Shown: in pieces, positions 3 to 36,686 of the stretch
Layout: the number at the start of each line of letters is the position of its first letter
How positions within the stretch are numbered: position 1 is the stretch's first letter
Assembly (NCBI GenBank): GCA_013375485.1
Contig: JABXKB010000007.1
Span: 1 to 36,686, forward strand
Direction of reading: 5' to 3'
From: Promethearchaeota archaeon
GTDB taxonomy: Archaea > Asgardarchaeota > Lokiarchaeia > Sigyniarchaeales > SOKP01
Length of the DNA stretch: 36,686 bases
Notes under the pieces: model-generated
What the model saw: the letters and a program-made list of their open reading frames with translations, nothing else
Database searches by the model: none
Told to the model about the DNA's origin: nothing
Position numbers and translations under genes: made by a program

Positions 3-950
3 TATCAAGAGATTGTTGAAGCTTCTTCTAATAGGACAGGTATTGAACTCAACAGTTATGACTATATTCAATACAAAATAGTATTTTCATTTGATCAAGA
101 ATTAGGATTAATGTTTATGTTTATAACTGATCTTAATGATGAACTTAGGCATACAAAACGTCAATTAGAAACCTTGCAAAAAGAATTTTTAGATACATTT
201 GGAGAAAGCACAGATAATTTGGATCCTTCTCTTATGGAGTTACTTGATCCTATAATGGATTCTATTCATAGGAATCTTAAAACAAAAATTTCCTTAGTTG
301 GGTTTTCAGGAGTAGGAAAAACAACGACCACAAAACTGATTTGCGCTACTGAAATTCCTTCTGTACATATTCCTACAATAACAGGAAAGATTTCAACCGT
401 AAAAATTGGTAAATTATATTTTCATTTATGGGATTTTGCAGGACAAGAACAATTTAGTTATTTATGGAATGATTTCATTCTCGGTAGCGATGCCGTTCTC
501 ATTATTACAGATTCTACATTAGAAAACGTGGAGAAAAGTAGGTTTTTTATTGAATTAATAAAAGAACACGCCCCTTATTCTCACACAGCTATAATAGGAA
601 ATAAGCAGGACTTACCTGACGCTTTAAATGTTGAAAAAATTGAAGAGATCCTTGGGTTAAAAACATATTCAATGGTCGCTATTGAACCAAATAATCGAGA
701 TAAAATGATCCAAATAATTGCAGATATCTTAGGGATAAGTACTGATGCTTCTCCCTTATTAAAACCTTTATTTGAGAGAGATCAACTAATCCATCAAGCA
801 AGAGTTAGCTTAGAAAATGGTGATATTGCTCAAACTGCTGAATATTTTGAAAAAATCTCTGATTTATGTCTTGAATTAGGAGATGATTCCCTTTATAAGG
901 ATTTTTATGAAAAAGCTAAGAAATTGAAAGGATATTTGACTAATCAATAA
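3..950 (+). CDS. Small GTPase (Arf/Rag-like) with N-terminal longin/roadblock-like region, 5'-truncated by window edge
   Basis: P-loop GFSGVGKTT, WDFAGQEQ, NKQD. The frame is open from position 3 (YQEIVEASSNRTGIELNSYDYIQYKIVFSFDQELGLMFMFITDLNDELRHTKRQLETLQKEF), so the M at 111 is internal. C-terminal TPR-like helices. Confidence 0.85.
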   Translation, partial: YQEIVEASSNRTGIELNSYDYIQYKIVFSFDQELGLMFMFITDLNDELRHTKRQLETLQKEFLDTFGESTDNLDPSLMELLDPIMDSIHRNLKTKISLVGFSGVGKTTTTKLICATEIPSVHIPTITGKISTVKIGKLYFHLWDFAGQEQFSYLWNDFILGSDAVLIITDSTLENVEKSRFFIELIKEHAPYSHTAIIGNKQDLPDALNVEKIEEILGLKTYSMVAIEPNNRDKMIQIIADILGISTDASPLLKPLFERDQLIHQARVSLENGDIAQTAEYFEKISDLCLELGDDSLYKDFYEKAKKLKGYLTNQ

Positions 951-1015
951 ATATTAAGCTTCTATTTAATCTTTCTATTATTAAATAGACAAAAAAAAAA
1001 AATTAAAAAAAAAAT

Positions 1016-2122
1016 TTATTCTTCTTCTTCAGTTAATAGTTTTGTCGATCGATAGTTGTCATCGAGAACGTTTAGATATTCAATCAAAACACCCTCTGAT
1101 TTTGATTTTACTCCATATTGATGAATAATTGTGTTTAACATGTATTTAGGATAGAGTAATGAATTATAAAAATCAGTAAGTAAAGCATAATACTCATTTC
1201 CTTTAGTATCTTGAAATACGTGAATCATTTGATTATTCCATAATTTTTTTAAGCCACCATCTATATCATCTACTCCCTTTTTTCTAAGTTTCTCTAATAC
1301 ATTCTTGGTTACAATTGAAATTCGTAAAAGCTTCAATATTTCATAGATTTGGGGATCAGCAATAACTTGATCTAAAATCTTGGTGTTATCTTCATCGGTT
1401 GGACGATATTTTTGAAAAAAATTCCGTATAGCAACATTATATTCCTCAACAAATCTTTCAGGGAGTCCTCGTTCTACTGGATTCTTGAGTAACTTGATCG
1501 GAGGTCTTCTAATCATAAAAAGATCATTAATTAAAAAGATTAATTCAGAAGGCATTCCTTTTACTGATGTTTCTTTAATGATTTCCTTTTTAATTAATTC
1601 CATCAAAATCGCATCTACGTCAAAAAATCCCTCTCTATATCTATCTTTTAGCCATATTTTTAATTCAGATTTAGTAATCACGCCTTCTTCTCTAAGTCTA
1701 TTAATTATCAAACGATTGACACTATCCAAATACGTAATGGCTAAACTCTGTTCTTCATTTAAATTAGGATAAGTAGATAGTCGTTGGAACAGGAAGGGAA
1801 TCATTTCCAAATAAGCATCATCTTCGAAATTTTGGAAAATAACCCGTGAAATATCTGATAATCCCCCTTCATAAGCATCAGCATCCTCATCCAAATTAAG
1901 AAGTAAAATGATATAAAGAGGTTTCTCTCGACCTGTATAATATGAAGCAATATTTAGTGGACCTACTAATAGACTAATCATCCCTGGTTCTCCTGTATAT
2001 TCATGTGCTGCATAAATTTGCATTAAAGTTTCATCGCTAATAATGAGTTCTTCAGGGTATTTTGTAAGAATTTCAGTACTAACCTTAATATCCCATCTCA
2101 TTATAACTAATCCTATTGGCAT
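1016..2122 (-). CDS. Asgard-type protein, probable longin/roadblock-like N-terminus plus winged-helix-like C-terminus, unknown function
   Basis: MPIGLVIMRWDIKVSTEILTKYPEEL...YYTGREKPLYIILLLNLDEDADAYEGGLSDISRVIF; start overlaps the stop of the upstream gene (TAATG). Confidence 0.7.
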   Translation of the reverse strand: MPIGLVIMRWDIKVSTEILTKYPEELIISDETLMQIYAAHEYTGEPGMISLLVGPLNIASYYTGREKPLYIILLLNLDEDADAYEGGLSDISRVIFQNFEDDAYLEMIPFLFQRLSTYPNLNEEQSLAITYLDSVNRLIINRLREEGVITKSELKIWLKDRYREGFFDVDAILMELIKKEIIKETSVKGMPSELIFLINDLFMIRRPPIKLLKNPVERGLPERFVEEYNVAIRNFFQKYRPTDEDNTKILDQVIADPQIYEILKLLRISIVTKNVLEKLRKKGVDDIDGGLKKLWNNQMIHVFQDTKGNEYYALLTDFYNSLLYPKYMLNTIIHQYGVKSKSEGVLIEYLNVLDDNYRSTKLLTEEEE

Positions 2123-5100
2123 TACTCAATATCACCTCTTTGTTCTGTTATTTTATCTTTTATTGCTAATTTCTTTTTTGATTCTTCAATTCCTAGTGAT
2201 TTCTCAATTGATAGACCAATTTGCTTCCAATCATTCCCAAATAATTTTGCAATCATTTGCTCTTTTGAGGGAATAGATATTAATTCCTCAATCTTCTTCT
2301 TAGATTTTATTAAGCCCTTAACTTTCCTAATTTTCTTTACGTGGTTAGGGATTCTAGCCTGTTGAATAACTCGATATGCCACTACGCTACCTAAAACTCC
2401 GATTATGGACAAAGTTATCAAAATAAAATAAAAAGTAGGCATTCCAGGAAATATTTCTGCCATTTTAATCTCAATTGTAATTGATACTATTTCTTTTTTA
2501 AAATTAGTCTTTTGGAATGTAATTTCTCCAGATAGAGTTTTCGAAGAAGTAAATGCTTCTGGATAAGAGAGAAAAGTAATAGCATAAGTTCCATCTCCAT
2601 TATTAACAATACTGATATCTTCATATAATCCACCACCGATGAAAATGTTGATAGTTCCGTCTGTTATTGGAGATCCATCATAGGAATCAATAAGTGTGAT
2701 ATCAAAAGATAGTCTATCTCCAGAAATTATTCGAATAAGATTATTTCTAAATGGCTCTGTTATTGAAATGTTAAAAAATCTATTCTGTAAGAAAATAGTA
2801 GTCGCAATTATCTGTGAAGTGAAATTAACTTTAGAAATGATAATCTGAGTGGTTGAGGTAGTCGAGGTTTCATCCTCAGTTAATCGAGTATAATCTATTA
2901 CATTTACTGAGTAAGATCCATTTACACCTTCAGAGAACGTATAATTGTTATTTTGATAAACCATTGAAATTGTAGCATTTTGTAGTGGAATATCTCTTGT
3001 CAGATCATGAAGAATTATATCGAGATCTAAAGGATCTCCATTCCTGAGCGTAAGAATACCTTCCACAATTTTTTCCGTAGGAAATGTGTAATTGAAGATT
3101 CTTGACATAATTTCTAAATTAATTAGAGCGGATTTAGCTTTATAATTCTGTTTGTGTAATGTAACATATAAATAATAAAATCCAATCGATTTTAATTCTG
3201 TGTGAAAATCTAAAGTATGTGTGTTGTCACCGTTTTGAACTAAGAACCCAGTACCAGATACTCCAGGAATTCTAGATCCATTTGAATATAATTCTTCCCA
3301 AGTATAAGAAGCAGTAGTTAAATTACCTATATTCTCCTCTGAAATTATATCTTGATATATAAATTCAAAGGGATTAGGATCCTGAACCCAGACTTTTGAA
3401 TTAATGTAGACTAAGTCAGATTCGCCATTTAAAGTTGTTGGCCTTTCAAGAACCTGTAGAGAAGAAAAAATAGTCTGTGATGTGTAATTTTCTTTCGATG
3501 CAGTAATAGTGATTGGGTATGTACCTACATTTATAGCCGGAGACGTGTCAATTTCACAATAATAATATCCATTATGAACAGGATCTTCAACAAAATATTT
3601 GGTCGGTTGATTAATCCATTTGAATGTAATTATTGGATCTTCTAATGGATTATCAGGTAGACCATAATATCTAACTGTTATATTTATTAATTCACCAAAT
3701 TCCTTTTTGAGATCAGATACAATAAGGCGTGTTTCATAATCATATAAGTTTATAGATGTTGAGGATGCATTCACTTGGACTTGCTGATAATATGGTTCTG
3801 GAGGTTCATATCCCGGTATCTCACCATCAATTATAAACCAATACTTTTTGAAATTATATCCTGCGGATAATCTGCTTGAATTTATTGTAAAGGAATAGTT
3901 TTGCAAATTGGGACCATCATAATTTGGGGTCAAATCTTCGATTAATACTATTTCACCTGTTATCCAATCTTCTACATAGCAAGTAAAAGTTCCCTCATCA
4001 AGCACTTGAATCCAATTAATACCATCTGTTGAATATGATACATTTATTGTTACATGTAGATCTCCAATATTCCACACTGCTTGAGAAATATCCGCCAGTA
4101 ATTCTATTTGAGTTTCCAGAGCAGGTGGAGCGGCAGCTTCTTGAAAATCAAGTATAACTGTAGAATTTTGATATAACGTGTAATTATATATATTAACATC
4201 TGTTAGAGGCCCCCATTGGTATGGATCGGTGTAATTAACATAGAAATCAGCAAGAACACCAATTCTTCTGAGAGTTATGTTATATCTATAACCAATTAGA
4301 AAAATGAATGGTTTATAGGTTGCTTCATAATGAGATGCCCATCCATCATCATAAGTAGTTAGGGTTGTAATTAAGGAACTACCATTCCAAATTCTAACAC
4401 TAACATAAGGAACAGGATCATATGAATAAGCATCATCAATAACTCTAATATGCATCTTAGATAAAGCTGTTTTGTTATAAACATTTGTTAATTCTGTTGT
4501 GTTAATTTTTATTAATCCATTATGAGCACCAATACGATATCCCTTAACATCAATTAAAATTCCATAAGCCTCATAATTTTCTCCTTTAAGTTTATCATTA
4601 TCTACAGTTCCAATATCTATTGATTTAAAGAACTCAGTACCTGACATACTATTATTTTGATAAATGACATTTCCTACAGTTTGATTATTTTTATCTATGT
4701 AATAAATTGTCATGTTATCAATTCGGTCATCCATAGTTTCTAAGGTTATATTAAAATTAATCAACTTCTTATGAGTGAAATCTGACATTGAACCATTTGT
4801 ATAGATTCGTTCATAAACCCTATAATAATTTCCAGCTTCTTGGTCATAAGTACTTACAGGTAAAAGATGATCATAAAACTTTTCATTTTGGACATAATTA
4901 GATCGGTAGATATAGCTTGAATTCAAAAGAAATTCATTAACATTATATTTTGTGTTATCGAAATAAACTTCATAATAATAAAATGAAGCATTATTCCATC
5001 GAAATCTTGCTGTTCCATTAACCAATGATAGTTGTTTTAATAGTGTCCCTCCATTATCATCAAAAACTTTAACATATCCGTCATTGAGAAGATCTTCATC

Positions 5101-34506: not shown

Positions 34507-35796
34507 TTATTTTATTGCCTTAATAATCTTTCTACCATTCATGTATTGACGAAGAATATCTGGAATTGTTATTGAATGGTCCTCATTTTGATAATTTTCA
34601 AGTATACAGCAGATGGTACGTTCAGTGGCTATTGCTGTTGAATTTAATGTATGTAATACCTCTTTAGCTTGCTGAGAACCAACTTTTCCCATCCGAATTT
34701 TTAATTTTCTTGCTTGATAATCTAAGCAATTACTACATGATACTAATTCGCGATAAGTTTCAGATGCAGGAAACCATGCTTCCAAATCATACTTTTTGGC
34801 AGCATTATCATTTAATTCGCCAGACGCTATATTAGCTACTCGATAAGGGATATTTAATTCTCTAAAAAGTTCTTCTGAATTTGTAATTAACTCTTCAAAA
34901 TATTTCCACGAGTTTGTTGGTTTGCTGAAAATAAACTGCTCAACTTTTTCAAATCGATGAACTCTGAATATCCCAAGGGTATCTTTGCCATGTGATCCTG
35001 CTTCCCTTCTAAAACAAGAGGAAATTCCCGCATATTTGATTGGTAATCTTTTGGGGTCAACAATTTCGTTATAATGATAAGCAGCTAAAGATTGTTCCGA
35101 TGTTGCAATCATATATAAGTCTTCATCTTGAATTTTGTATAATTGCTCTTCAAAATCTACTAATTCTGCAGCAGCTTTCATAACTTCATATTTAGTAAAG
35201 AAGGGAGTCCACATAGGGGTAAAATTTTTGCTTATCAATTTATCTAAAGCATATTTCAAAAGGGCTAAATTAAGTAAAACCAGATCTCCTTTTAAATAAT
35301 AGAATCTTGAACCTACAACTTCAGAAGCTTTTTTAGTGTCTACACCATCAATTTTTTCAATTAAATCAACATGAGATAATGGTTTAAAATCAAATTCAGG
35401 TAATTTTCCAAAAACCCTTACAATTTCATTATCATCTTCTGTTTCACCAATGGGAACAGATTCATGTAAGATATTACCTATCTTATAACGATACTCTTCT
35501 CGCTGTTCAAGGTATTGAGCTTTTAGTTTTTCTAAATCTTCAATTTTATCCTTTATTTCTTTTGATTCCTTTATTGCTTCTTCAGCTTTTTTACTGTCTT
35601 TTGATTTTTTAAACTCTCCAATTTTAGTTGAAATTTCATTTCTATATTTCCTTAATTCTTCTATATCTTGTAGAGCGGTCCTCCATTTTATATCGTATTC
35701 TAAAACTCTTTCTGCAATTGATGGATCTTTAAACCTTTTTTTCTCCGATTCGATTATTATATCAAGATTCTTTCTGAATAATTCAATATCAAGCAA
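34507..35796 (-). CDS. serS: Seryl-tRNA synthetase (standard type)
   Basis: MLDIELFRKNLDII N-terminal arm; TPFFTKYEVMKAAAELVDFEEQLYKI; SSCFRREAGSHGKDTLGIFRVHRFEKVEQF; LNSTAIATERTICCILENYQ. TTG start with GGTGC 6 nt upstream. Confidence 0.95.
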   Translation of the reverse strand: MLDIELFRKNLDIIIESEKKRFKDPSIAERVLEYDIKWRTALQDIEELRKYRNEISTKIGEFKKSKDSKKAEEAIKESKEIKDKIEDLEKLKAQYLEQREEYRYKIGNILHESVPIGETEDDNEIVRVFGKLPEFDFKPLSHVDLIEKIDGVDTKKASEVVGSRFYYLKGDLVLLNLALLKYALDKLISKNFTPMWTPFFTKYEVMKAAAELVDFEEQLYKIQDEDLYMIATSEQSLAAYHYNEIVDPKRLPIKYAGISSCFRREAGSHGKDTLGIFRVHRFEKVEQFIFSKPTNSWKYFEELITNSEELFRELNIPYRVANIASGELNDNAAKKYDLEAWFPASETYRELVSCSNCLDYQARKLKIRMGKVGSQQAKEVLHTLNSTAIATERTICCILENYQNEDHSITIPDILRQYMNGRKIIKAIK

Positions 35797-36079: not shown

Positions 36080-36350
36080 AATATTAAATAATTATTTTTT
36101 CAATAAAAAATTCACGAGAAGATCTTAATACAATTATCAAAATTAAGTCCAATCATCTAAAAATATCTTATTAAAAACAAATATCTAAGATTTTCTTTTT
36201 TTTTAGAGAATTCTATTATCAAAATCAATATTATGAAAACTAATAAGAAAAAATAAATTATTTCAATAATTTCATAACGCAATAAGATTTAATGTTATAT
36301 TTCAAATCAATATAAAAGTAATGGTGAAGTTTTACAAAAAGGTGAAATAA

Positions 36351-36686
36351 TTGTCTGAAAGTCAGACCACTGTTAGAATAGGAGTCTATGTATGCGAGTG
36401 AGGAGTAAATATTAAAGCTTCCGTTGATTGTGATGCTGTTAGAGATGCTGTGGAACATATTCCGAATGTAGTGGTTGCTAAGGTGAATTCTTTTACGTGT
36501 TCTGATCCAGGACAAAACATAATACGGAATGATATTTTAGAGCAAGATTTAAATAGAATAGTTGTGGCTGCATGTACACCAAAAATCCATGAACCCACCT
36601 ATAGAGCAGTTTTAATTGAGGCAGGTTTAAGCCCATATTATTTCCAGATGGTCAATTTAAGAGAACATTGCTCTTTTGTCCATAGA
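36351..36686 (+). CDS. hdrA: Heterodisulfide reductase subunit A (HdrA), N-terminal part, with in-frame TGA (probable selenocysteine) at 36399-36401; truncated by window edge
   Basis: TTG start after GGTGA; reads MSESQTTVRIGVYVCE[TGA]GVNIKASVDCDAVRDAVEHIPNVVVAKVNSFTCSDPGQNIIRNDILEQDLNRIVVAACTPKIHEPTYRAVLIEAGLSPYYFQMVNLREHCSFVHR. HdrA N-terminal signature on both sides of the TGA. Confidence 0.88.

Follow-up and report, generated by a model that had tools for sequence, protein, structure and literature searches.

At the right-hand end of a stretch of Promethearchaeota DNA, a reading frame for HdrA is interrupted by a TGA. How is this codon read, and what could be the role of the residue that it encodes? 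The stretch (the window, 36,686 nucleotides) corresponds to contig C123 in a draft genome of 4.6 Mb with an estimated contamination of 9%. The features that bear on the question are the following.

36340..36345, plus strand: AGGTGA, likely ribosome-binding site of hdrA, a role read from the sequence.
36351..36686, plus strand: 5' part of hdrA (codons 1-112 of 665) with TTG start, HdrA by PDB and NCBIfam matches; the rest is on contig C361.
36393..36395, plus strand: TGC, Cys15, first Cys of CxU; UGA in no relative.
36399..36401, plus strand: TGA, read as Sec17; its counterpart in 5odc_A is Cys13, and it is predicted to ligate the N-terminal [4Fe-4S] cluster.
36498..36500, plus strand: TGT, Cys50; UGA in 27 of 121 relatives, aligns with Cys46 of 5odc_A, predicted ligand.
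36573..36575, plus strand: TGT, Cys75; UGA in 37 of 121 relatives, aligns with Cys71 of 5odc_A, predicted ligand.
36543..36686, no strand: exact 144-nt match to C361:1-144, through which the window is joined to the remaining hdrA, mvhD, the putative SECIS and an frhB/fdhB-like gene.

From the TTG at 36351 to the end of the window, the frame is broken only by the TGA at 36399-36401 (codon 17), in the context RIGVYVCE[U]GVNI. The 112-residue product matches 5odc_A in the PDB (E=4e-37) as well as the NCBIfam models HdrA2 (E=4e-43) and HdrA (E=1e-22), while a Pfam search with this N-terminal stretch gave zero matches. When aligned, all five solved HdrAs have a Cys at the position of UGA17. The first-pass annotation had described an HdrA frame with a TGA exactly at the second Cys of a CxC motif, and these matches and structures bear it out. 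Just upstream of hdrA, on the minus strand (34507-35796), lies an apparent seryl-tRNA synthetase gene, as judged by its translation. This is the type of enzyme that charges tRNA-Sec with serine; its position next to hdrA is probably a coincidence.

The explanation that is preferred here, with a probability of about 0.8, is that the window ends in the beginning of a Lokiarchaeia-type Asgard hdrA-mvhD operon for selenoproteins, in which a SECIS would direct Sec insertion and Sec17 and Sec201 are predicted cluster ligands. By homology and gene order, the HdrA would be the flavin-based electron-bifurcating subunit, acting with MvhD and probably with an FrhB/FdhB partner.

The remainder of the gene is found on C361, whose start is an exact overlap with the last 144 nt of the window. 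Joining the two contigs completes an hdrA of 665 codons with a TAA stop and with TGA at codons 17 and 201. Extension of the contig to the right had been suggested as a way to find more Cys-aligned TGAs, and codon 201 was indeed found in this manner. It lies in the context DDCGI-U-VLAP, and the matching site in 9sfi_A is a non-standard residue. Downstream of hdrA follows mvhD, which contains two in-frame TGAs (CDKUGYSA and IISUKEGECEF) and ends with TAG at L009:2256. The FrhB/FdhB-like gene begins at L009:2346, past mvhD and a SECIS-like hairpin. Since orthologues on unbroken contigs carry the same two hdrA TGAs, both the join and the gene order are supported. The HdrA domains (N-terminal cluster, FAD, inserted and C-terminal ferredoxin) were assigned by comparing the full-length product of a paralogue on contig C310 of the same genome with 5odc_A and 9sfi_A; the completed hdrA displays the same motifs.

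Which positions carry UGA was analyzed for 121 aligned HdrAs. By reference residue, UGA occurs at 17 (120 proteins, in a set that was selected for Cys15-x-Sec17, so that those two residues are fixed by construction), 50 (27), 75 (37), 201 (108 of 115), 300 (2) and 303 (4), and it is absent from the 24 other Cys columns. Residues 300 (L032, L091) and 303 (L046, L057, L068, L124) are Cys positions of the ferredoxin motif in the inserted domain. Two other UGAs fall elsewhere within the protein, at residue 164 of L076 and residue 531 of L058, and the rest are located in C-terminal tails or fusions. The two internal ones stand in non-Cys columns and are likely due to sequencing error, decay or frameshift. 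UGA at residue 15 was searched for separately and was found in none of 232 Asgard genomes and in none of 28 HdrAs chosen for Sec201. The latter set contains one additional UGA, at Cys596 (L209) in the C-terminal ferredoxin domain.

On a rough FastTree phylogeny, built without the Sec-variable columns, the state has changed between Cys and Sec at least eight times at residue 50 and at least ten times at residue 75. Sec at 17, 50, 75 and 201 together is observed in 19 proteins, which include a paralogue from the same genome:

L011, nt 249-2288, minus strand: paralogue hdrA on contig C273, with four UGAs (CQU, FLU, SAU, DDCAIU).

Three of its UGAs lie in the N-terminal domain and one at the canonical site, and the neighboring mvhD has two internal UGAs. 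The same genome also contains an hdrA with three UGAs followed by an mvhD with two (contig C214, L013, minus strand) and an hdrA with two UGAs followed by an mvhD with two (contig C36, L012).

As a rule, a [4Fe-4S] cluster has four ligands. Residues 17, 50, 75 and 201 align with Cys13, Cys46, Cys71 and Cys197 of 5odc_A, respectively. In the published structure, Cys197 of one HdrA ligates the N-terminal cluster of the partner HdrA, this cluster sits on the path to ferredoxin, and the ferredoxin motif of the inserted domain (sites 300 and 303) belongs to the same branch (PMC9012536). The source organism is given as M. wolfeii in that paper, and as M. thermolithotrophicus for the related entry 5ODH in PMC12350162. 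Because Cys197 is a published ligand and the four Sec-variable sites match the usual number, we infer that residues 17, 50 and 75 together with 201' of the partner ligate one inter-subunit [4Fe-4S] cluster, and that Cys11 of 5odc does not. Cys15 is conserved too and could be a cluster ligand. Where HdrAs of sulfate reducers are fused, a Cys at 201 is missing from the half that carries Sec17, as the trans arrangement predicts, and in L072 the other half has Cys at 201.

It is moderately likely that the inter-subunit cluster of Asgard HdrA is held by Sec in this way. In the present HdrA, Sec17 and the partner's Sec201 would supply two of the four ligands and Cys50 and Cys75 the other two, while all four would be Sec in the subfamily to which the C273 paralogue belongs. 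The cluster would lie on the low-potential branch, by which electrons reach ferredoxin, and the selenolate ligands presumably tune its potential, the rate of electron transfer or its resistance to damage.

In the main rival explanation, Sec17 would be a redox-active or protective selenol that is paired with Cys15 (CxU) and has no role in the cluster. It can draw on the many selenoproteins in which Sec stands beside Cys in a redox motif, as well as on Cys15 being invariant across the sets examined. However, Sec also occurs at 50, 75 and 201, which are distant in sequence, and the four sites are otherwise always Cys; residue 201 has already been published as a cluster ligand; and the rare Sec at 300 or 303 falls within a ferredoxin motif. 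A pure selenol pair is therefore considered unlikely, and the assignment of Sec17 as a predicted cluster ligand is retained.

That UGA17 is decoded as Sec, via the archaeal/eukaryotic pathway, is strongly supported at the level of sequence. The first-pass annotation had named the Sec machinery as a check, and the genome proves to contain it. The gene for tRNA-Sec (anticodon tca) adjoins that for SepSecS, and two tandem selD genes on contig C97 (9618-11724) each have an in-frame TGA (FGUNCKL and HGUSCKLG). The candidates for SelB (240.5 bits, curated cut-off 242.25) and PSTK (148 bits, curated cut-off 290.5) were assigned by best match and sequence. The TGA at codon 17 is kept in orthologues from other genomes that are 83-95% identical. 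When codons 18-112 were compared with six orthologues, a dN/dS of 0.046-0.073 was obtained. Such strong purifying selection beyond UGA17 implies that the protein is made past it. The proposal that this UGA stands for Sec is thus upheld by the machinery, by a SECIS-like hairpin and by conservation of the TGA across independent genomes, chromosome-level ones included.

Could UGA17 instead be a true stop, leaving HdrA truncated, frameshifted or started anew at a downstream codon, or is it simply a sequencing error? UGA does end three of the 31 genes in the window, but coding constraint persists 3' of UGA17, 84 Asgard genomes and two chromosome-level assemblies have UGA at the same codon, and Cys columns alone are affected, which makes either option highly improbable. 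A genome-wide reassignment of UGA (e.g. to Trp or Cys) without SECIS would have parallels in other lineages with an altered UGA meaning, yet it can be dismissed almost entirely, given that UGA is still the stop of three of the 31 window genes, is confined to Cys columns and occurs in a genome that encodes the complete Sec pathway, with SelDs of the Sec type.

The SECIS element that decoding as Sec calls for had also been proposed as a check, and a candidate is present after mvhD. At L009:2258, directly 3' of the mvhD stop, an eSECIS-like hairpin with an AUGA_AA core was found (ATGA-C-CTTTTCAA-loop-TTGAAAAG-AA). It conforms to the eSECIS-like type with AUGA_AA core that PMC11227280 describes for hdrA/frhD of Lokiarchaeia, and is regarded as a putative SECIS. 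This single eukaryote-like element would direct Sec insertion at UGA17, at UGA201 and at the two UGAs of mvhD.

In a set of 94 genes (89 related genes and five from the same genome), SECIS-like hairpins were detected downstream of 53, as against 0.8 of 94 dinucleotide-shuffled stretches at the same score. No candidate was seen in 30 of the 94 downstream stretches, some of which are short contigs or come from bacteria with another SECIS type. Across 44 hairpins, 94.7% of the stem cells are paired and changes on both sides occur at nine of nine pairs, a covariation that is supporting only, as the finder favors pairing by design. The hairpin of the gene itself has a folding z of -2.07 when taken alone, and an Rfam scan for the SECIS family at the loci of this genome returned nothing useful. 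On C310 (L010, 5168-7201, plus strand), an hdrA with two Sec codons has no mvhD recognized directly behind it, and its SECIS-like hairpin is located about 20 nt or less from the hdrA stop.

It had further been suggested that the N-terminal position of Sec may be less usual. This does not hold for the Asgards, where it is common. The pattern CxUGxNI was found in at least 116 stretches of GTDB genomes, mostly from Lokiarchaeia and other Asgards and some from Desulfobacterota; the matches listed include CP070831.1 and CP070805.1, both titled chromosomes. Of the 232 genomes of the Asgard phylum, 84 contain a degenerate CxU motif and 98 contain the motif of the canonical Sec201 site. The same patterns read backwards occur in 0 of 232 genomes each, so that the CxU motif cannot be attributed to chance. 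Sec17 is also present in 23 of the 28 HdrAs that were picked for Sec201 and missed by the strict CxU pattern, and N-terminal Sec is thus normal for Asgard Sec-HdrA. The methanogen site does lie deeper in HdrA, as the first-pass annotation had stated, and the present gene has that site, codon 201, as well.

A few CxU HdrAs come from genomes with other names. A Euryarchaeota-titled genome (L083, JAMOPO010000027.1, G232) encodes an HdrA with Sec17 and Sec201, a tRNA-Sec over the cut-off (contig C27) and SepSecS; either the genome is misnamed, or this may be a euryarchaeon outside the known orders that decodes Sec. The CxU HdrAs L144 and L060 were found in bins titled Euryarchaeota and Bathyarchaeota, respectively, and possibly represent misbinned contigs. 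Both tRNA-Sec and SepSecS were detected in the L060 bin, and neither scored over the cut-off in the L144 bin.

Sec-containing HdrA and FrhD/MvhD were reportedly described in Asgard archaea by Mariotti 2016. That study, or the supplements of Huang 2024, may already document HdrAs with more than one Sec. The latter study reports both families as Asgard selenoproteins (PMC11227280). In the literature examined, HdrA and FrhD are presented as multi-copy selenoproteins and some FrhD/VhuD as having multiple Sec. As far as the main text of Huang 2024 goes, that system resembles the present operon in its families, the hdrA-frhD order, the shared AUGA_AA eSECIS-like element and the machinery. The number and position of Sec in HdrA are not given in that main text, whereas the present analysis places Sec at 17, 50, 75 and 201 and links all four sites to one predicted cluster. 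A literature search for Sec-ligated iron-sulfur clusters in HdrA yielded nothing relevant, and the Sec ligand pattern in HdrA is unmentioned in the main text of Huang 2024 and in the other literature examined.

In the Methanococcales, Sec is known in HdrA and VhuD (PMC2933860). PDB entry 9sfi_A is probably a Methanococcales Sec-HdrA with the canonical site: like the present gene it has a non-standard residue (X) at the site matching codon 201, but it has Cys at the codon-17 site (CYC). The likeness to methanogen HdrABC-MvhAGD (5odc, 8rvu, 7bkb) is close, as full-length C310 HdrA matches 5odc_A with E=1e-202 and all domains aligned. In these methanogen HdrAs, however, each of the four predicted ligand positions is a Cys, unlike in the present HdrA, and the present operon has a separate mvhD followed by an FrhB/FdhB-like gene. 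C310 HdrA also remains below the curated CoB-CoM cut-offs (NCBIfam equivalog or HdrA2; 798 of 1100 and 587 of 1400 bits), so that the natural disulfide substrate need not be that of CoB-CoM HdrA. Sec-containing HdrA is also known from sulfate reducers such as Desulfobacterium autotrophicum (PMC2702500). They share the Sec HdrA and MvhD gene pairs, and CxU is also found in some Desulfobacterota fusions, but their Sec system is bacterial, and in the Sec17 half the counterpart of residue 201 is a Tyr.

Most discussions of Sec deal with its roles in catalysis and in binding Ni, Mo or W. In these HdrAs, the position of Sec tracks, from one gene to the next, the predicted ligands of a single cluster for electron transfer, with repeated swaps of Cys and Sec among near relatives. 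If this is true, the low-potential branch of a bifurcating enzyme would contain a naturally encoded all-selenolate iron-sulfur cluster, and the ligand set of a cluster would be readable from the placement of UGA. HdrAs with one to four predicted Sec ligands, along with Cys-only paralogues, form a natural series that could serve as a tool to study the effects of selenium on potential and stability. Standard gene callers truncate the Sec-HdrA proteins at the UGA. The operons have at least four Sec codons per identified eukaryote-like SECIS, and the first UGA comes only 17 codons in; both features bear on the efficiency of Sec insertion in the archaea nearest to eukaryotes.
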